Part shown: piece by piece, positions 2,753 through 22,773 of the stretch
How the letters are laid out: the number at the start of each line of letters is the position of its first letter
Numbering within the stretch: the stretch's first letter is position 1
IMG/VR virus record: IMGVR_UViG_3300006101_000074
Coordinates: 1-22,857 of that record
DNA: 22,857 nt
Reading direction: 5' to 3' (one strand)
Source: a virus
The notes under the pieces: model-generated
What the model was told of the DNA's origin: nothing
Databases searched by the model: none
Seen by the model: the letters and a program-made list of their open reading frames with translations, nothing else
Program-made: the position numbers and the translations under genes

Positions 2753-3981
2753 TGTACTTTATCCTCAAATGCACCCTTAAGACATTCTAAATTAGTAACA
2801 TATCTAGGTCTAACATCTGGACGTCTAATCTCATGATGTGACTTTGCAATTAACCAACGTCCGCTCATCTGAGGATCAGCTTCTTTATTATTTGTTTGTG
2901 ATGTAATTTTAGGAACATTAGCCATGATTGTTTTTCCTGGCTCTAAAATAGGATCACCGATTATTGTCATGTGCATAAGTTGTTCTTGCATTTGAGCCAT
3001 ATTCAGTTGTTTGTATGGGATAGATGCAGGAACATTACTTTTATCGACTTTAATATTTTTATTTGGATTCACAACTCTGAAAACTGTTTTATTAGCTTTT
3101 GGAAATAAATTTGCAAATGTTGCAAGTGTAGTAATGAGACCCACACCTAAACTGATTAGCTCTTCAGCTTTAGGTTTAAAATCTTGACTTACAAACTTAT
3201 GAGTATGTGGATCATAAGTGCAAACTCTCTGATTAATAACACCAGCATGAATACGATTCATTGCATCCATATTTTGTTGAACTTTGATCGCAAGAATATT
3301 ATTTTCGATGTTGCTATTAATAGAATGACCGACTGTATTTTCTTGTTTGAATGTTTTAACATCACCTTGTTGTAACATATATTCGAGCGACTGGAAATAT
3401 AATCCTCTCCAAGTTTGCCAGAACATAAAATTCGAACCTTTGTTTTTTGCTGATACTGCTTCTTTCCTTAACATTTCAACTGCATGAAATGAAGGCTGGT
3501 TAGTAATTTTAAAATTACGATTGCCTTTGGTAGGCTCAGCAAACAATGGAAGATTTGAGTTATGATAATTTTTATGGAGATCTTGAATAATTTGATCAAT
3601 AGTAGTATTATATGCTTTCTGAACATGATTTGCCTGACCAGAAAGAGATTCACGAGTAATACAATCTAACTTATACACCTTTGATTTTAAAGCGCCAAAA
3701 GGTTCTACTTCTTTAACGCTGTTCAAATGGAACATGTAACTTACAGGAATCCCATTAGGTTTACGCATTGTGAAAGCTACTTGCTCGTCACCAGCGATTT
3801 TTAATTGTCCGATGTAATCTTGATCATCAACAACTTCAATTTCAGCTGTTACTGCTGGAATAAAAATAGTTTCTAAAATATTGCATGATAGAAAATTGCG
3901 AGCCATATTCCAAGCAGTAGTTCTTGGAGATATGATAGTTAAGTTATCGATAAAAATATCACCTGGATTAAAACTTGCCAT
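2749..3981 (-). CDS. 27: gp27-like baseplate hub protein
   Basis: A 410-residue protein, close to the 391 residues of T4 gp27. It begins with a gp27-like segment (FIDNLTIISPRTTAWNMARN, residues 10-30), followed by beta-rich hub-domain text that ends in a YKLDCITRESL strand, then helices ending in FMFWQTWRGLYFQSLEYML. In T4, gp27 trimers form the pseudo-sixfold ring that joins the spike (gp5) to the tail tube. It is directly upstream of, and overlaps by four bases, the gp5-type OB gene, the same pairing as in the T4 hub. Start ATG at 3981 directly follows the gp53-like stop. The C-terminal 70 residues contain a basic stretch. Assignment is by motif layout and neighbours. Confidence 0.8.
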   Translation of the reverse strand: MASFNPGDIFIDNLTIISPRTTAWNMARNFLSCNILETIFIPAVTAEIEVVDDQDYIGQLKIAGDEQVAFTMRKPNGIPVSYMFHLNSVKEVEPFGALKSKVYKLDCITRESLSGQANHVQKAYNTTIDQIIQDLHKNYHNSNLPLFAEPTKGNRNFKITNQPSFHAVEMLRKEAVSAKNKGSNFMFWQTWRGLYFQSLEYMLQQGDVKTFKQENTVGHSINSNIENNILAIKVQQNMDAMNRIHAGVINQRVCTYDPHTHKFVSQDFKPKAEELISLGVGLITTLATFANLFPKANKTVFRVVNPNKNIKVDKSNVPASIPYKQLNMAQMQEQLMHMTIIGDPILEPGKTIMANVPKITSQTNNKEADPQMSGRWLIAKSHHEIRRPDVRPRYVTNLECLKGAFEDKVQ

Positions 3982-7660: not shown

Positions 7661-8374
7661 ATGGCGTTACCAAAAATTGACTACCCTACAATTTTGATTG
7701 AATTACCTTCTGACAAGAAAACTTATATGTTCAGACCGATGCTTGTAAAGGATGAAAAGCTCCTTTTGATGGCGAAGGTAAGCGAAGATGATACAGATAT
7801 TCTTACTGCTATTAAACAGGTTGTGAATAACTGTAGCCTTGATCCGACACTTAATATCGACAAGATTCCATTGTTCGCGCTCGAGTATTTATTCATTAGA
7901 CTTAGAGGTTTCTCGATCGGTGACATGATTAAAGTCGCTTACAGAGATCTTGAAGATGATAAAACATATGAATTCGATATTGATCTCAAAGATATTACCA
8001 TTAAGTATCCTGAAAAAACAGATACAAAAATCGAAGTAACTAAGACTTCTGGTTTGGTGATGAAGTATCCTTCAGCTAGCATTTATAGCGATAAGGAATT
8101 CCTTAAAGCAACTGGTGAAGAAACTTTCTATCGTCTTGTTGTCCGTTGCATTGATCAGATTTATGATGAAGATAATGTATATGAAGGCAAAGATTTCTTA
8201 GAAGATGATATTTTAGAATTTATCGAACTTATGGATATTACGAGCTTTGAAAAAGTTCGTTCATTCATGACTAACCTACCTTCTTTGTATTATAAAATTG
8301 AATATAAAAATGCTATGGATCATGACAAGGCGATCGAATTGACGACGTTATCCGATTTTTTTACCTTGCGCTGA
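7661..8374 (+). CDS. 26: gp26-like baseplate hub assembly protein (zero-frame product)
   Basis: A 237-residue acidic protein of the T4 baseplate gp26/gp51 family (PF12322 type): it begins with LPKIDYPTILIELPSDKKTYMFRPMLVKDEK, followed by a LLLMAK helix, IKQVVNNCSLD, and LPLFALEYLFIRLRGFSIGD, all characteristic of that family. Start ATG is six bases after GGAG. The zero-frame product ends at TGA 8372-8374, ten bases after a run of seven T residues (8356-8362) that fits a T_TTT_TTT slippery heptamer. A -1 slip there would extend the protein by 60 residues. In T4 these proteins act in hub assembly and are not in the mature virion; position just ahead of the large tail protein also fits a tail-assembly chaperone. 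Confidence 0.85.
   Translation: MALPKIDYPTILIELPSDKKTYMFRPMLVKDEKLLLMAKVSEDDTDILTAIKQVVNNCSLDPTLNIDKIPLFALEYLFIRLRGFSIGDMIKVAYRDLEDDKTYEFDIDLKDITIKYPEKTDTKIEVTKTSGLVMKYPSASIYSDKEFLKATGEETFYRLVVRCIDQIYDEDNVYEGKDFLEDDILEFIELMDITSFEKVRSFMTNLPSLYYKIEYKNAMDHDKAIELTTLSDFFTLR
8356..8362 (+). promoter_or_regulatory. Candidate -1 ribosomal frameshift slippery site (T TTT TTT)
   Basis: Seven Ts read in the gp26 frame as GAT TTT TTT ACC. This is an X XXY YYZ heptamer with both tRNAs able to re-pair after a one-base backward slip, continuing TAC CTT GCG. Only four codons (ACC to the TGA) separate it from the zero-frame end. I see no strong stem or pseudoknot downstream; a weak stimulator or the homopolymer itself would have to suffice. 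Confidence 0.6.
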
Positions 8375-8544
8375 GTCATAACACTCTAGACAATTATTAT
8401 CAAACTGTCTTTTCTCTTGCTCAGCATCATAAATATTCTTTAACAGAAATTGAAAATCTAATTGTTTTCGAACGAGACATATATATTGAACTTTTAACTG
8501 GATATCTTAGAGAACAAGAGGAAAGACAGAAACAACAAGGTTAG
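8362..8544 (+). CDS. -1 frame extension of gp26 (60 codons, no start codon of its own)
   Basis: In the -1 frame from base 8362 the sequence encodes 60 residues beginning YLALSHNTLDNYY and including SLAQHHKYSLTEIENLIVFE, RDIYIELLTGYLREQEER, ending at TAG 8542-8544, three bases before the next gene's ATG. The text is clearly protein-like (amphipathic, helical, acidic). The frame contains no ATG, GTG or TTG, and is closed upstream by a TGA at about 8322, so it cannot easily be translated alone. Fusion through the T7 site would give a 294-residue product. It occupies the place of T4 gp51, and resembles in logic the lambda gpG-gpGT tail chaperones. A miscounted homopolymer giving one continuous gene is the main alternative. 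Confidence 0.6.
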   Translation, partial: YLALSHNTLDNYYQTVFSLAQHHKYSLTEIENLIVFERDIYIELLTGYLREQEERQKQQG

Positions 8545-8547
8545 TGA

Positions 8548-10854
8548 ATGGCAAAGGCTCCAGGTAAGTTAGCGGGTTCTCTCGGTAATACCAAATACTA
8601 TTATACCAAAGATGGTAAGATCGTAGACGAAGCTGGCAAGCCAGTAAGCGATAAAATTGCTGTTGTTTTCGAACCTGCTCCTTCTGCTGCAACAGAACCA
8701 AAAATGGAAGATGTTTTTCCAGAAACATTTGCTGGCGGAAAGAAACAGAGAAAAACTCGTGCCTCAGTAGACACTGACAAAGAATCTTCTGAATATAAAA
8801 GAAATGCCCAAGAACTTAGAATGACGTTTGAAAACGTCGAAGATTTGTTACGTGATAATAACGTCATTCTAAAAGATCAGATTGTACTCCAGGAAAGATC
8901 ACTTGTACTACTTGAAGAAGTTGTACAAGCAATCAAGAACAAAACTGGTGGCGGTGGTGGGGGCAATTTACCTAATATAAAAAGTAGTTTAAATTTAAAA
9001 AATATCTATGGTAAAGTAGGTAACATTGCCAAGACAATGAATATTATGTCTGTTATGGCTGACATAAACAATCTTACCAAAGAAGATATTGAAAATAAAT
9101 TAAATCCTCCTGCAGATGATATTATGAGTCAACCAATGACAAAAGTTATTGGTGATTGGTGGTCTGGTGGAAAACAAGACGATGCAGCAAGTTTACAACC
9201 AAAAACTACTCTTAGCGTTGCTCCTGGTAGCGAAGGTAAAGATACAGCAGCATTAGTAGCTGAAATGACTGCACGTGCAGAAGCAGCAAAAAACGATGCA
9301 GGAACAAAAACAAACGGAACAAAACAAACTGCCGCTGTTACTGCTGCCGCTGCAGCAAAGGTCCAATCAAAAAATACATTGACATTTAAAGGTGATGAAT
9401 TAAAATTCATTGCTGATAAACTCACATTCGATGTTCAAACATTAAAAATTGAATCGAAAACAGCACCACAGAATAACCAACAAGCAGGCGCACCTGCTGC
9501 ACCTACGCCAGCAGCACCTGGAACTGGTGGTCCAAATGCATTAGGTAATGGTCCTGGACCACAACAAAGTGGTGTTGTTAATACTCCAGGCGGAACAGCT
9601 GCTCCTGATAGATCAAGAAACCTTGGCAATCCAGCATTTACTGGAAACACTGGAGCTGGAACTACTGGTCCTTCATTTGCAGGCATGGGCGCTGGCGGCG
9701 GACAACCACTTAAGTTAGGAAGATCAGCAGTTAATCCACAAGAAATGTATAGCTACCTACGTTCAAAGGGTGTTGATCATGAACACGCTGTTGGTATGCT
9801 TGCTAACGTACAGGCAGAATCAAATTTCAATAGTTCTTCTATTGGCGATAATGGAACGAGCGGTGGTTTGTTCCAACACCATAATGAACGTTTTGCAGCA
9901 ATGAAAAGAGCAGCTGGACCAGATTGGAATAAAAATTGGAAAGGTCAAATTGATTATGCTCTAACAGAACCAGAAACTAAAAAATATTTAAAAAGACAAG
10001 TTGGTTCTGGTCAAGAAGCAGCAAGATATTTTGTCGGCGATTTCGAAAAACCAAAATATGCGGCTGCAGCAATGCAAGCTCGCGCTGGTATGGCTGGTAA
10101 TTTCGAAACTTTCTCTACTTCAACAGCAGCTACAGCTCCAGTTCCTGTAGCTGCTGCAACAACACCAGCACCAGCAGCAACAGCGACTGCTAAACCTGCA
10201 GTTGGTTCTGGTCGCGGTAGTGGTGAAGCTGAAATGGCTCAACGTCATGCTGACTCTGTTGGTGGTGGTCGTGGTAACATTGTCGAAAAAGATGGTGAAA
10301 GAGCTGCAGCCAATAGAGTGTGGCAAAAAGATTATAAGGGTCGTGAAGGTCAGTGGGTTCGTGAAGGACGTAATACACATTTTATTGCACGAGCTGATAT
10401 TGAAGCGCAAGAACAATCTAAAAATGTTGAAGAAGATACAAGAGCAAAATATATCGAAGAAGCAAGATCTAATGCAGCTAAAACAACTAATCCATTAGCT
10501 CTTGGAAATGCTAAGATGGAAGCAGCGATACAAACTGCTAAGTTAGAAGAATCAAAACCAAAGTATTCTGCTGGCGCTCTTGCTATGGGAATGATACCAC
10601 CATCATCACTTGGTGTGCCTCCAAATCCTGGAAGAGGTTCTGGAGCATACCGAGAACAAGCTGGTGAACGTGAAAAATATCAAAAAACAAGTAAGAAAAA
10701 TAACCGTCTAGACCATGAAACGCCAAAGACAGTTGCTCCTGGTGGAGATATGATGTCTAATGCAGCCAACAAACATCCATATCTACCAATCGCTGCAGCT
10801 ATGGGTCTTCTTGCTGCTGCAGTTGGTATTGCTGCAATGAGAGGACACAGATAA
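8548..10854 (+). CDS. Large tail/baseplate protein with phage-tail lysozyme domain (768 aa)
   Basis: Modular protein. Residues 75-135 form a helical/coiled-coil segment (DLLRDNNVILKDQIVLQERS) followed by a Gly run. Residues 270-305 form a short beta segment (LTFKGDELKFIADKLTFDVQ). A Pro/Ala/Gly-rich linker spans about 310-390. Residues about 397-520 match the phage-tail lysozyme family: YLRSKGVDHEHAVGMLANVQ, then AESNFN with Glu424 as the likely catalytic acid, GTSGGLFQHHNERF, and AARYFVGDFEKP. A low-complexity region follows and the last ~25 residues form a hydrophobic helix (PYLPIAAAMGLLAAAVGIAA). Directly after gp26 with AAGG seven bases from ATG. It probably cuts peptidoglycan during infection, and by position could also be the tape measure or hub. 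Confidence 0.85.
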   Translation: MAKAPGKLAGSLGNTKYYYTKDGKIVDEAGKPVSDKIAVVFEPAPSAATEPKMEDVFPETFAGGKKQRKTRASVDTDKESSEYKRNAQELRMTFENVEDLLRDNNVILKDQIVLQERSLVLLEEVVQAIKNKTGGGGGGNLPNIKSSLNLKNIYGKVGNIAKTMNIMSVMADINNLTKEDIENKLNPPADDIMSQPMTKVIGDWWSGGKQDDAASLQPKTTLSVAPGSEGKDTAALVAEMTARAEAAKNDAGTKTNGTKQTAAVTAAAAAKVQSKNTLTFKGDELKFIADKLTFDVQTLKIESKTAPQNNQQAGAPAAPTPAAPGTGGPNALGNGPGPQQSGVVNTPGGTAAPDRSRNLGNPAFTGNTGAGTTGPSFAGMGAGGGQPLKLGRSAVNPQEMYSYLRSKGVDHEHAVGMLANVQAESNFNSSSIGDNGTSGGLFQHHNERFAAMKRAAGPDWNKNWKGQIDYALTEPETKKYLKRQVGSGQEAARYFVGDFEKPKYAAAAMQARAGMAGNFETFSTSTAATAPVPVAAATTPAPAATATAKPAVGSGRGSGEAEMAQRHADSVGGGRGNIVEKDGERAAANRVWQKDYKGREGQWVREGRNTHFIARADIEAQEQSKNVEEDTRAKYIEEARSNAAKTTNPLALGNAKMEAAIQTAKLEESKPKYSAGALAMGMIPPSSLGVPPNPGRGSGAYREQAGEREKYQKTSKKNNRLDHETPKTVAPGGDMMSNAANKHPYLPIAAAMGLLAAAVGIAAMRGHR

Positions 10855-10855
10855 T

Positions 10856-12865
10856 ATGGGTATTATCAACGGATTAACAGATTATCTTGTTAAAAGAGAA
10901 ACATCGGCTAATCAACCTAAAAAAAATCTCAAGAAAGCATTTCCTGAGACATATAAAACTAATACAAAATCAAGAACCGCTAAGAAGGTAAACAAGCCTA
11001 GTGCAATTTCTGATTCTGTTGATACGCTCAGTGAATCTGTTAAAATAACAAACAGTGTTTTGGTTAATATCGCTGAAATACAAACACAACAGAATGTTAT
11101 TCTTGGTGAATTGATCAACGCTATTCATGATATGAAATCATATCAGAAAGGTTTCTTTGAAAACCTTCTTGATGATATGAGCATGCCAAATATTCCTGAA
11201 AAGGAAAAGATAAAACCAAAGGAAGTTGGTGAAGGTAAAGGCAAGCCAAAAACTGTAAAGACGAAACCAGGATTCAAATATAATGAAAAAACTCAAAGAT
11301 ATCATGAGGTCAAACCTGATGGTAAAATGGGTAAGATGGTCACTGAAGAAACAGCGACAGGTGTTCCAAAAGCTGGTAAGCCAGTTGGTCCTCCTGTTGA
11401 ATCTACTGGTGCTTCTAAAATGGCTAAATTCAGTCGACTTGGTGGTGCAGCCATGGCGGGCGCTGGTGGTGCACTTGCAGGTTATGAAGAATATCAACAG
11501 AGCGGTAATCTAGGTAAAGCAACTGCAGTTGGTGCAGGTTCTGCTGTTGGTGGATGGGCTGGTGCAGAATCTGGCGCTATTCTTGGTGCTACTATTGGTG
11601 CTGCTGGTGGTCCGTTTGCTTGGCTAACAATTCCGCTCGGTGGTATCATTGGTGGTGTTGCTGGTGGCATTGGTGGATCAATGGCAGGTGAATCTATTGC
11701 CAGAACAGGTTATGATTACATAGCTGGTGAAGATCCTAAAAAACCAAATGATGCGAAACCAACTGAAGTTAATAAAGACGGTAGCAAAGTTTATTCTGGC
11801 GACATATTAAGTTTTGAAGGTAAAGAAATAACATTTACCGCAAATGAGATGATACTCAGAACAACTGAATTATTGATCAATGGAGCTAGTTCCGAATCAT
11901 TTAGTAATGGTGGTGCAGATTTAAGTTCTGTTGCAACACCTACTGTCAATGCAGGAACTGATCAAGGCGAACAAGTTAATTTAGATTTAGTTGACATTAC
12001 TACTTCTTCTGGTAGAAAAGCAAAAGTTAATAGAGCTTATGCTGCTAATTTCCAAGGATTTATTAATGAACTTGAAGCTACTGGTTATAAAATTAACAGC
12101 ATTGGTGGATATGCAAACAGAGCAAATGTTAATAATCCATCGGTAAAGAGCTATCATGCTCTTGGTGCTGCGATTGATATTAATCCAGGATCTAATCCAA
12201 ATGGTTCAACAAGAACAGATCTACCACCACAGACTGCTGCGATAGCCGCAAAATATGGTCTTGGATGGGGTATGAATTGGAGATCTGTTAAAGATCCGAT
12301 GCATTTTTCTATTGCTAAATCTGAACAAGGTAGTGTGAATATTTCTCGTACTGGTTTTATGTCAGGTGAAGTACAAGGCGGTGCTGCAACTGGTGGTAAT
12401 GGTGCTCAACAACAACCAAAAACTCAAGCAGCACCACCAGTTACTGCAAGTAGCCAAGCGCCAGCACAAACACCAACAACTTCTGCAACTCCACCAGCAG
12501 CTGTTCCAGCACCTGCACCACAAGCAGCTCCACCTGCTCCTGCTGCAACTCCTGTTGCTTCAGCTCCACCACCTGCTCCTGCTGCAACTCCTGTTGCTTC
12601 AGCTCCACCACCTGCTCCTGTTGCCCCAGCTCCGATGCCTGTTAATGAACCAAAAACTGCACCTCCGCCACCACCACGCAGACCAAGTAATATTGTTACT
12701 TCAACAAATGGTCCATCAACTCAACAGAGCACAGTAACACCATCAGCTAGAAGTAATAAACAACCAGCTGTATCATCTGATAAAGATAAAGTATCAGAAC
12801 AATCTGCACTAATGTCGTTACCATCGACAGTATTATTAGGACATTATTTAACTGCTGCCGCATAA
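10856..12865 (+). CDS. Large tail protein with M15 (VanY/endolysin-type) peptidase domain (669 aa)
   Basis: Begins one base after the preceding stop. Residues 45-105 are helical (LVNIAEIQTQQNVILGELIN), residues about 185-280 an apolar Gly/Ala-rich stretch with several GxxxG repeats, residues 313-345 a beta segment (DILSFEGKEITFTANEMI), and residues about 370-490 an M15 zinc peptidase: SYHALGAAIDINPG supplies His434 and Asp441, WGMNWRSVKDPMHF supplies His483. The C-terminal 150 residues are Pro/Ala-rich with a 13-residue tandem repeat. Members of M15 cleave peptide cross-links in peptidoglycan. The helical and beta modules resemble those of the lysozyme-bearing neighbour. Virion-associated wall peptidase is more likely than a free endolysin given size and linkers. 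Confidence 0.85.
   Translation: MGIINGLTDYLVKRETSANQPKKNLKKAFPETYKTNTKSRTAKKVNKPSAISDSVDTLSESVKITNSVLVNIAEIQTQQNVILGELINAIHDMKSYQKGFFENLLDDMSMPNIPEKEKIKPKEVGEGKGKPKTVKTKPGFKYNEKTQRYHEVKPDGKMGKMVTEETATGVPKAGKPVGPPVESTGASKMAKFSRLGGAAMAGAGGALAGYEEYQQSGNLGKATAVGAGSAVGGWAGAESGAILGATIGAAGGPFAWLTIPLGGIIGGVAGGIGGSMAGESIARTGYDYIAGEDPKKPNDAKPTEVNKDGSKVYSGDILSFEGKEITFTANEMILRTTELLINGASSESFSNGGADLSSVATPTVNAGTDQGEQVNLDLVDITTSSGRKAKVNRAYAANFQGFINELEATGYKINSIGGYANRANVNNPSVKSYHALGAAIDINPGSNPNGSTRTDLPPQTAAIAAKYGLGWGMNWRSVKDPMHFSIAKSEQGSVNISRTGFMSGEVQGGAATGGNGAQQQPKTQAAPPVTASSQAPAQTPTTSATPPAAVPAPAPQAAPPAPAATPVASAPPPAPAATPVASAPPPAPVAPAPMPVNEPKTAPPPPPRRPSNIVTSTNGPSTQQSTVTPSARSNKQPAVSSDKDKVSEQSALMSLPSTVLLGHYLTAAA
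12527..12628 (+). repeat. 39-bp tandem repeat encoding a Pro/Ala 13-residue unit
   Basis: Two and a half near-identical copies (12527-12562, missing one codon; 12563-12601 complete; 12602-12628 partial). Each encodes PPPAPAATPVASA. It lies in the C-terminal linker of the M15 protein and would vary in copy number by slippage. Confidence 0.85.
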
Positions 12866-16529: not shown

Positions 16530-17066
16530 TCAGAACTTGTAGTTAACACCAAGCGTAACACGATCGTCTGAATTACGATCCTTCTTTTCAATAGCATCAG
16601 TGTGGCGATAACGAGTGTCAAGCTCAATATTACGAGCAAACTGATACTTCACACCACCACCAACGTTGTAGATAGAACGATCACGTGAAATAGAATCCCA
16701 ATTATATCCAACGCCAGCAAGACCATAAACAGAAGCGCCAGTCCCAAACAAAGGCAACTGAGGAACAGCATTTACAGCAACTGTCTGCTTAGAATCACGC
16801 TTGCCTGCAATTTCCTTGCTTGGGCTGGCATAATCATATGTCATTTCGGTAGCAAGATATTCACTGGCATATGCGCCGAGAGAAATACCACCAGAATAAA
16901 CACGAGTCTTATCACTATTACTTCCAATGTTAGCACCAACAAAATAAGGAAGTGATCCTTCATGAATTGGAGTTGGAGGAAGAGGAATGCTCTTCGAAGG
17001 CAAATCAGAAGCCAAAGCTCCAACAGTACCAGCCAAGAATGCGATAGTGGATAGTGTGTACTTCAT
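16530..17066 (-). CDS. Phage-encoded outer-membrane beta-barrel protein (Omp25/Lom-like)
   Basis: A 178-residue protein with a classic signal peptide (MKYTLSTIAFLAGTVGALA, predicted cleavage after ALA at 17-19), a Pro-rich stretch, and about eight alternating beta strands with aromatic edges (for example LPYFVGANIG, VYSGGISLGAYAS, LATEMTYDY, VYGLAGVGYNW, YNVGGGVKYQF, IELDTRYRH), ending in VTLGVNYKF with the terminal Phe required for BAM insertion. The fold resembles small 8-stranded OMPs of Rhizobiales (Omp25/Omp31) and lambda Lom. Start at the second ATG (17066), seven bases after AAGGA; the ATG two codons earlier is too close. It follows tRNA-Arg and has its own terminator. Function may be surface change or superinfection exclusion. 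Confidence 0.85.
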   Translation of the reverse strand: MKYTLSTIAFLAGTVGALASDLPSKSIPLPPTPIHEGSLPYFVGANIGSNSDKTRVYSGGISLGAYASEYLATEMTYDYASPSKEIAGKRDSKQTVAVNAVPQLPLFGTGASVYGLAGVGYNWDSISRDRSIYNVGGGVKYQFARNIELDTRYRHTDAIEKKDRNSDDRVTLGVNYKF

Positions 17067-17099
17067 TTTCATTTCCTTTACATTATAGTCGTTTAGATA

Positions 17100-17176
17100 T
17101 GGCGATTCCTGTTGGACTCGAACCAACGACCCTCAGATTAGAAGTCTGATGCTCTATCCAGCTGAGCTAAGGAACC
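17100..17176 (-). tRNA. tRNA-Arg (anticodon TCT), CCA encoded
   Basis: Full cloverleaf on the minus strand: acceptor GGTTCCT/AGGAATC (one G-T pair), D arm GCTC…GAGC, anticodon stem TCAGA/TCTGA with loop CTTCTAA giving anticodon TCT for AGA codons, T arm GTTGG-TTCGAGT-CCAAC, discriminator G, and a genomic CCA at 17102-17100. AGA is common in this AT-rich genome, while CGN dominates in many alphaproteobacterial hosts, so it likely helps translation. Confidence 0.95.
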
Positions 17177-21130: not shown

Positions 21131-21820
21131 CTAGGACATGAACTTCTTGAACAACACGATCACTTCATCGATAGACTCGACAGTGATAGCAAACTTTTGC
21201 TTCTTGCCATCTGGGAAAGGAGCCGATCCATTCTTTTTATTATAGCCGTTTGAGCTCAGCCAGTCAAACATTTTATTTTTTATGTGTTCGAGCTTCTGGT
21301 CGTCGCCCTGATTGATCTCGAATGTGACCTTGATGCTTTCGTCCGTCGAGGACCAGTACCACATCATGTACATAGAGTTGCGAGCATTGCTGATCATGAA
21401 CGTAGAGCTAGAGCGAATTTTGATTTCCGCGATTCGATTCTTGAACGTATCATGATAATTATCAATATACCAGTCAGGGAACTTCTCGAAATTATCGAAT
21501 TGGTCTGATTGGAAGTCAGAGAACATTGAAGACAGAGAAGCCACTTTGAAACATTCCTTGTAGTGTCCCGCGACAATATTGTCCTGCGGATGACGATTGC
21601 TGATCATATAAGATTCAAGAAGCAGAGAGGGTTTGTCGATGAACTTCTCCAAATTCCTCGCCACAATATGACAGTGATCGATGACGTAGCCTTTGTCTTT
21701 CAGGTGCACCAAACAACGATCACCAACTCCTTTGCCAACATAAAGTATGAGTCCATTGTTGTCGACGTACTCATAAATGTACTGACCGAGAGTTTCGAAA
21801 AACTCCGCTGTTGGTCTCAC
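21131..21820 (-). CDS. GIY-YIG (LEM-3-like) domain nuclease-like protein, GTG start
   Basis: A 229-residue protein. The N-terminal half has a GIY-YIG core as QYIYEYVDNNGLILYVGKGVG (residues 13-33) with Arg35 and Glu69 (LLLESYMI) as likely catalytic residues; the YVGKG-x-GxR form resembles the LEM-3-type subgroup rather than classic homing enzymes. The C-terminal half (residues 90-229) is unassigned, with a beta-strand/helix mix and a Lys/Gly linker. The GTG at 21820 overlaps the DUF932 stop as GTGA, and GGAGG is four bases upstream, which decides the start. Coupling to DUF932 implies early expression. Confidence 0.78.
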   Translation of the reverse strand: MRPTAEFFETLGQYIYEYVDNNGLILYVGKGVGDRCLVHLKDKGYVIDHCHIVARNLEKFIDKPSLLLESYMISNRHPQDNIVAGHYKECFKVASLSSMFSDFQSDQFDNFEKFPDWYIDNYHDTFKNRIAEIKIRSSSTFMISNARNSMYMMWYWSSTDESIKVTFEINQGDDQKLEHIKNKMFDWLSSNGYNKKNGSAPFPDGKKQKFAITVESIDEVIVLFKKFMS

Positions 21821-22773
21821 GCTGCCTCCGCCATTTCAACCGCAGTCTCAAGAGCCTTTGTCTTGACACCCTTGTAGTAACCGTACCAAGCAGAAGTCAA
21901 GCGGCTGTCCGTGGTACGACCAATCACATGATCGGTCAGGAACGTAACAGCGTTGAATGCCTGCCACCAAGAACCAGCAGCGTACTCTGCACCAGGTTGA
22001 GTCTCGAGAATGTCCAGAGCGTACTGAGCATTCTTGGACACTTCCTTCTTCTTTTCACCCGAACCAGTGACAGGGAAGATCCGAGTGAAGTACTCAACGA
22101 TATTTTCTTCGGTGTAACGCTTGGAGCCGAGGAACTGAGCCATATCCTTGTACTTGGCAAGCTTCTCAGTAGCAATCCCAAGCATGCCCTTCACGTCATC
22201 AGGACGGAATTCCTTGCGGTGAGAGACCTTAGCCATCCGCTCGACCTTGCTGTTCAGAGACAGGGTCAGCGTGTTATTGCACACGACGCGGATAGGAGTG
22301 AAGCGGACGTCAGTCGAGAAGCCATACTTGTGGAAGTTGGAGAACAGCAGATAGGAATCAATCTTGTCACCCTTGAACAGCTCGAAGCTCTCCTTAACCT
22401 TGGCGAGACCCCAGATGATCTGACCATCACGGAGAGAGCCAGCCGTATGCATCTCCATATCACCAGCCGCAACGAACTCATTGAAGAAGTCAAAAGCCTC
22501 TGCGTTCTGGACGGGATTCCAGTCATTCGAAACAACGTCGAGGATCTGATTGTCAGAGGAACGAACAAGCGCCGACTGACCGATATTGACATTCTTGCCA
22601 CCAACCTTCGCGAAGGCAGGAATCTTCTCAACAGACCAGTCGAGACCAGCAGCTTCGAGCATCTGAGCCGGAGTCAGATCATTGGGAACCTTAGTTCCGA
22701 GACCGTGCCAAGGAAGCTCCCCAGCGTATGCCATCTGAGCCTTACCGTTAACCATTTCAATCATGTGAGCCAT
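21817..22773 (-). CDS. DUF932 phage/plasmid-like protein
   Basis: A 318-residue protein of the DUF932 type: N-terminal PWHGLGTKV and DWSVEKIPAF, then LDVVSNDWNPVQNAEAFDFF, a central FTPIRVVCNNTLTLSL element, and C-terminal NAVTFLTDHV. Such proteins are widespread in phages and plasmids; function is not established. First gene behind the promoter at 22810-22838, AGAGGA about eight bases before the ATG. Its base composition is clearly more GC-rich than the structural genes, with few AGA codons. Confidence 0.9.
   Translation of the reverse strand: MAHMIEMVNGKAQMAYAGELPWHGLGTKVPNDLTPAQMLEAAGLDWSVEKIPAFAKVGGKNVNIGQSALVRSSDNQILDVVSNDWNPVQNAEAFDFFNEFVAAGDMEMHTAGSLRDGQIIWGLAKVKESFELFKGDKIDSYLLFSNFHKYGFSTDVRFTPIRVVCNNTLTLSLNSKVERMAKVSHRKEFRPDDVKGMLGIATEKLAKYKDMAQFLGSKRYTEENIVEYFTRIFPVTGSGEKKKEVSKNAQYALDILETQPGAEYAAGSWWQAFNAVTFLTDHVIGRTTDSRLTSAWYGYYKGVKTKALETAVEMAEAA

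Follow-up and report, generated by a model that had tools for sequence, protein, structure and literature searches.

A predicted programmed −1 frameshift in gene 26 of T4-like phages and its candidate stimulators

The question raised by this locus is how a protein-like stretch of 60 codons behind gene 26, lying in a frame that has no ATG, GTG or TTG, might come to be translated. The window, meaning the whole 22,857-base virus record that was analyzed, carries T4-like tail and replication genes. A first-pass annotation had proposed a programmed −1 frameshift fusing gp26 to this extension, and the heptamer, the frame, their conservation and a covarying stem give that proposal support at the sequence level. 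We consider it very likely, from sequence and a structural model, that one gene gives 2 tail assembly chaperone isoforms through −1 slippage at T_TTT_TTT.

Gene 26 and the −1 frame in the window

The gene 26 homologue is encoded on the plus strand at 7661..8374, and its 237-aa product, the candidate short isoform (TAC-N, or gpG-like), belongs to PF12322 (T4_baseplate) by a profile search scoring E = 4.6e-49, with 167.5 bits against a curated cut-off of 24.5. It also matches phrog_150 'baseplate hub' at E = 1.5e-52. The 3' end of the gene reads GAT TTT TTT ACC TTG CGC TGA, with the TGA stop at 8372-8374. The slippery heptamer T_TTT_TTT is at 8356..8362 on the plus strand, and the gp26 codons GAT (8354-8356) TTT TTT put this X_XXY_YYZ motif in the zero frame and inside the overlap of the 2 frames, the register that had been claimed for it. 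The stop was said to come ten bases after the heptamer; it does begin at the tenth base, with 9 bases intervening.

The −1 frame on the same strand is open for 72 codons at 8326..8544, ending in the TAG at 8542-8544, three bases short of the next ATG at 8548, as first described. The 60-codon C-terminal extension at 8362..8541 (plus strand), the predicted gpT-like part, had been called highly protein-like; it matches phrog_634 'baseplate hub assembly catalyst', the gp51 family, with E = 2.5e-24 over profile positions 58-115 of 121, so that the predicted long form of this PF12322 locus carries the gp51 C-terminal domain. Substitutions in the extension are distributed over the codon positions of the −1 frame as 32/20/48%. 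The statement that it has no possible start codon holds for ATG, GTG and TTG, which are absent from the whole −1 frame of the window, and needs the qualification that the non-canonical ATT, ATC, ATA and CTG are present.

In the mechanism that we propose, most ribosomes would read gene 26 to its stop, giving the short form of 237 aa, and a minority would slip by −1 on T_TTT_TTT, with help in the window's clade from a stem-loop lying 7 nt past the heptamer. The slipped ribosomes would bypass the gene 26 stop and add 60 residues, giving a long form of about 294 aa. The short and long forms would be the counterparts of T4 gp26 and gp51 and of lambda gpG and gpGT. Both forms would presumably cover or accompany the tape-measure/hub complex, bring in tube subunits, and then leave. 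What the analysis shows is the heptamer, the frame, the lack of a start codon, the conservation, the covarying stem, the homology to gp26/gp51 and the chaperone fold; the slippage itself, its efficiency and its role in assembly are predictions.

Two other genes of the window may be mentioned. At 16530-17126 the minus strand has a gene whose product is a beta-barrel protein of the outer membrane (PF13505, E = 2.4e-15), which is unusual cargo for a phage, and a DUF932 protein (PF06067, E = 2e-38) is encoded on the minus strand at 21817-22773, where a long open frame runs antisense to it.

Conservation of the heptamer and other routes to the extension

Two scans, of IMG/VR and of records of isolated phages, yielded 165 loci with both parts, and removal of near-copies left 114 non-redundant viral relatives. 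The extension domain is in the −1 frame at 165/165 loci, and an in-frame T_TTT_TT stands at the gene 26 junction in 114/114 relatives, so that the heptamer and the overlap, for which an alignment of orthologues had been suggested as a check, prove to be conserved. The base after T_TTT_TT is T in 63, C in 44 and A in 7 of the 114. The codon ahead of the heptamer varies (GAT, AGT, TCT, GCT, AAT, TTT) and always ends in T, the residue there being D, S, N, A or F. CPKCG-like cysteine pairs are found just ahead of the junction in Mendera, Vibrio phage phi-ST2 and T4 (L183, L167 and L166), and none is found in the window protein. At other gp26 codon positions, an in-frame T_TTT_TT occurs with a frequency of 0.07%, giving an expectation of 0.014 per 20-codon 3' end, and its presence at this one place in 114/114 is therefore far beyond chance. 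Codon choice at the site compared with background use gives log10 P of −40, a value not corrected for relatedness. The heptamer is exactly where the −1 frame becomes open in 32/114, and the first 8 codons past the heptamer are free of ATG, GTG and TTG in 85/114.

Further scans with gene 26 queries from Citrobacter, Sinorhizobium and Vibrio phages added 40 more distinct sequences, all 40 with the heptamer (last base T in 28, C in 9, G in 3); T_TTT_TTG and T_TTT_TTA are also found in relatives beyond the 114. Isolates bearing the site include S-PM2, S-MbCM6, P-SSM4, P-HM2, HTVC008M, Melnitz, pf16, Milchi, phiN3, RL2RES, phiM9, phi-ST2, Ci1, Asswx_1, Aeh1, Mendera and XG4. To judge from sequence, frameshifting appears to be found in almost every T4-related relative examined. 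Hundreds of public genomes carry the pair, and those inspected annotate it as 2 genes or omit the extension.

Among explanations that do without ribosomal frameshifting, the one that survives best, though improbable, is transcriptional slippage on the T run, by which an mRNA with an added U would be read straight through. T runs among the 114 range in length from 6 to 9, and the runs of 7-9 in 67/114 could permit some polymerase slippage, but the other 47/114 have six Ts only and then another base, and the conserved Shine-Dalgarno-like elements and covarying stems described below are stimulators of ribosomes.

Very improbable is that the extension forms a small gene of its own, gp51 as it stands in databases, with translation by reinitiation or coupling downstream of the gene 26 stop. 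TAATG or TGATG overlaps do occur at the gene 26 stop in some Vibrio, Rhizobium, Stenotrophomonas and Pseudoalteromonas phages, so that in those distant relatives the extension could be translated on its own. Normal start codons in relatives had been named beforehand as evidence against frameshifting; they exist in these few, with the heptamer kept in all save Vibrio phage K474 (L179, around 3190-3405). There the heptamer is absent and the extension begins at a TAATGATG overlap, so that frameshifting seems to have been lost in this phage. Against a separate gene elsewhere, the starts that annotation gives in Melnitz, HTVC008M and P-HM2 would remove part of the conserved domain, and in T4-type phages the domain is fused within the long protein gp51. 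For the window itself a separate small gene is rejected for lack of ATG, GTG or TTG in the extension frame.

An error of sequencing or assembly hiding a true run of eight Ts, with gene 26 continuous into the extension, is the least credible of the three, even granting that homopolymers are error-prone and that the Stenotrophomonas phage IME-SM1 record shows T5 against T6 in its relative Mendera, since the eight-T run that was to be looked for is excluded by the same −1 arrangement in relatives (165/165 loci, and 47/114 distinct ones with T6 only), and the close relatives L002 and L003, from separate contigs, have the identical T7. The five Ts of IME-SM1 (L176, NC_054952, 3250-3254) put its annotated gene 26 in the wrong frame and are probably an indel error in that record.

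A downstream stem and a Shine-Dalgarno-like element

The relatives fall into the window's clade, 50 relatives with the same longer overlap (...ACCTTGCGCTGA), and a marine/cyanophage clade of 64. In the window's clade, the 70 nt 3' of the heptamer fold better than shuffles, with a mean z of −3.9 over 50 sequences; the window's own fold is −13.4 kcal/mol with z of −2.93. Pair counting and covariation delimit a 9-bp stem on the plus strand, with its 5' arm at 8370..8378, 7 nt past the heptamer, and its 3' arm at 8417..8425. Over 48 distinct sequences, 94.0% of the cells of this explicit stem are paired, against 20-39% in slid controls. Its covariation score was matched by 0/500 shuffles, with 17 cells changed on both sides, counts which, like those for the other stimulator, are supportive and not exact probabilities because the shuffle controls keep relatedness. 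One pair of the stem is GC in 19, AU in 13 and GU in 10 sequences. These compensatory changes replace amino acids encoded by each of the two arms, a point in favor of RNA pairing. The window's copy has one mismatch in the alignment register, or a one-base bulge in the MFE fold. RNAalifold, run on the full set of 49 sequences, gave no consensus structure, for which a few differently folding members are probably responsible, and Rfam gave no family at the site, with two hits far below the gathering score.

In the marine/cyanophage clade, a Shine-Dalgarno-like element, GAGGG at a cyanophage site, is found 10-14 nt upstream of the heptamer, the anti-Shine-Dalgarno windows starting 14-17 nt before it. 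It scores at or below −4 kcal/mol in 83% of the 64 relatives versus 4% of the background. The corresponding upstream peak was sought in the window's clade and none was found. Each clade has one of the stimulators associated with programmed −1 frameshifting, at a standard distance: the stem belongs to the window's clade, the Shine-Dalgarno-like element to its sister. A search of the available literature found no description of the covarying stem or of the alternative Shine-Dalgarno-like element.

How much of this is new can be drawn more narrowly. G-T frameshifting has been called widespread 'except T4' (PMC5009743, 2016). According to PMC10885494, citing Vladimirov 2022, some T4-like phages do without frameshifting and carry a short chaperone gene together with a fused long one; PMC12846349 cites poly-T slippery sites as known among T4-like phages. 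Going by the papers that cite earlier work, frameshifting at the gene 26 locus is to be treated as probably reported already, and the stimulators are the part for which no description was found. The combined picture, of one homologous site with 2 lineage-specific stimulators not described before and a T4-type escape from frameshifting by duplication into genes 26 and 51, stands evenly poised in our estimate.

Chaperone fold, T4 gp26 and gp51, and known systems

The AlphaFold2 model of window gp26 has a pLDDT of 90.6. Its residues 1-95 match 3fgx with Z = 8.3, HK97 gp13 (2ob9) with Z = 7.2 and YqbN (3klu) with Z = 7.1, the matches spanning 84-86 residues and the next one scoring Z = 2.8. These 3 structures are phage tail assembly chaperones (PMC9603447), which assigns the modeled domain to the tail assembly chaperone fold. 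Used by itself on this model, Foldseek gave HK97 gp13 only a weak rank, and a search of the PDB sequences by profile yielded no relative and no match to a solved chaperone. A model of T4-type gp51 gave no clear PDB match, a result that says nothing against a shared fold.

A large tail protein had been noted after the extension, and the gene at 8548..10854 (plus strand) encodes a 768-aa product with a tail lysozyme domain (PF18013, E = 6.3e-17). It also matches the phrog_9570 tape measure at E = 4.7e-12, mainly over the lysozyme region, and by its size and place it is a likely candidate for the tape measure. The stretch 8548-12865 contains 2 adjoining large tail genes, one with the tail lysozyme domain and the other with an M15 peptidase domain and long proline-rich stretches.

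In lambda, the tape measure and tube proteins are what gpG and the −1 product gpGT act on, and both chaperones leave the virion (PMC5009743). Judged by sequence and model, the window's locus gives a T4-like phage a system of the lambda gpG/gpGT type, and the analogy drawn in the first-pass annotation gains support from the chaperone fold (Z of 7.1-8.3) and from the homology of the fusion to gp51. A lambda-like chaperone role is inferred from the fold, the gene position and the two-isoform logic.

The relation to T4 is where the 2 forms can be matched one to one. T4 genes 26 and 51 are divergently transcribed, and their products match PF12322 at E = 8.8e-64 and 3.9e-52, respectively. They are paralogues, with an hhalign score of E = 2.5e-22; gp51 matches phrog_150 too, and it alone of the T4 pair matches phrog_634. 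Over residues 15 to 292 the conceptual frameshift fusion aligns with T4-type gp51, unbroken at the junction (hhalign E = 8.3e-24), and T4-type gp26 aligns with the fusion as far as the junction (hhalign E = 2.9e-25). By these alignments, the zero-frame product corresponds to gp26 and the −1 fusion to T4-type gp51; that is, T4 gp26 is the predicted short isoform and T4 gp51 (249 aa) the equivalent of the whole fusion. The proposed link to the separate T4 genes stands, with the refinement that gp51 answers to the whole fusion and not to the 60-residue extension alone.

A heptamer was found in 0/16 T4-type genes 26, though Phe-Phe is often retained (T4: GAG TTC TTT), and on this sequence comparison it is lost there. 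RB43 has long and short genes in tandem. In a quick unrooted tree, a branch with SH-aLRT 99 sets the frameshift type on one side, apart from both T4-type groups; the Straboviridae members Ci1, Asswx_1 and phi-ST2 fall on the frameshift side, and RB43 gp26 is placed beside gp51. Read most simply, frameshifting is old and gave way to duplication in the T4 branch, an order that we infer only, the tree being quick and unrooted.

Predicted frameshifting at gene 26 bears on an older puzzle. Sullivan 2010 (PMC3037559) described cyanophage gp51 as lacking its first ~200 residues and gp51 as missing in Aeh1, and the accessible portion of that paper holds no explanation for the short or missing gp51. 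In Aeh1 (L269, around 1756-1980), gp51 does exist, left out of the annotation, as a −1 extension that follows GAT TTT TTC. The 'truncated' and the 'missing' gp51 would both be explained if gene 26 supplies the missing part via frameshifting. The locus also offers a natural case of one recoded gene and 2 duplicated genes for the same job, with RNA signals that are testable.

Among known systems, the −1 chaperone loci of Vandenendeviridae and Andersonviridae (PMC12846349) likewise carry a poly-T slippery motif where the short-form gene ends, but in other phage families and with a GTTTTT motif. With lambda gpG/gpGT and HK97 gp13 the window shares the logic of a short and a minor −1 product directly 5' of a large tail gene, and the N-terminal fold of gp26 matches 2ob9, 3fgx and 3klu; it differs from them in that gp26 goes on past the matched domain with a further C-terminal part of about residues 96-237, in the T_TTT_TTN type of the heptamer, and in having no sequence match to a solved chaperone. 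Bacterial −1 signals of the dnaX type combine a heptamer with an upstream Shine-Dalgarno-like element and/or a downstream stem, whereas here the 2 stimulators are divided between 2 clades of one homologous site. To T4 gp26 and gp51 the likeness is full-length homology with short and long forms, and the difference is that T4 has 2 diverged, separately transcribed genes without a slippery site, where the window has one gene and a predicted −1 frameshift.
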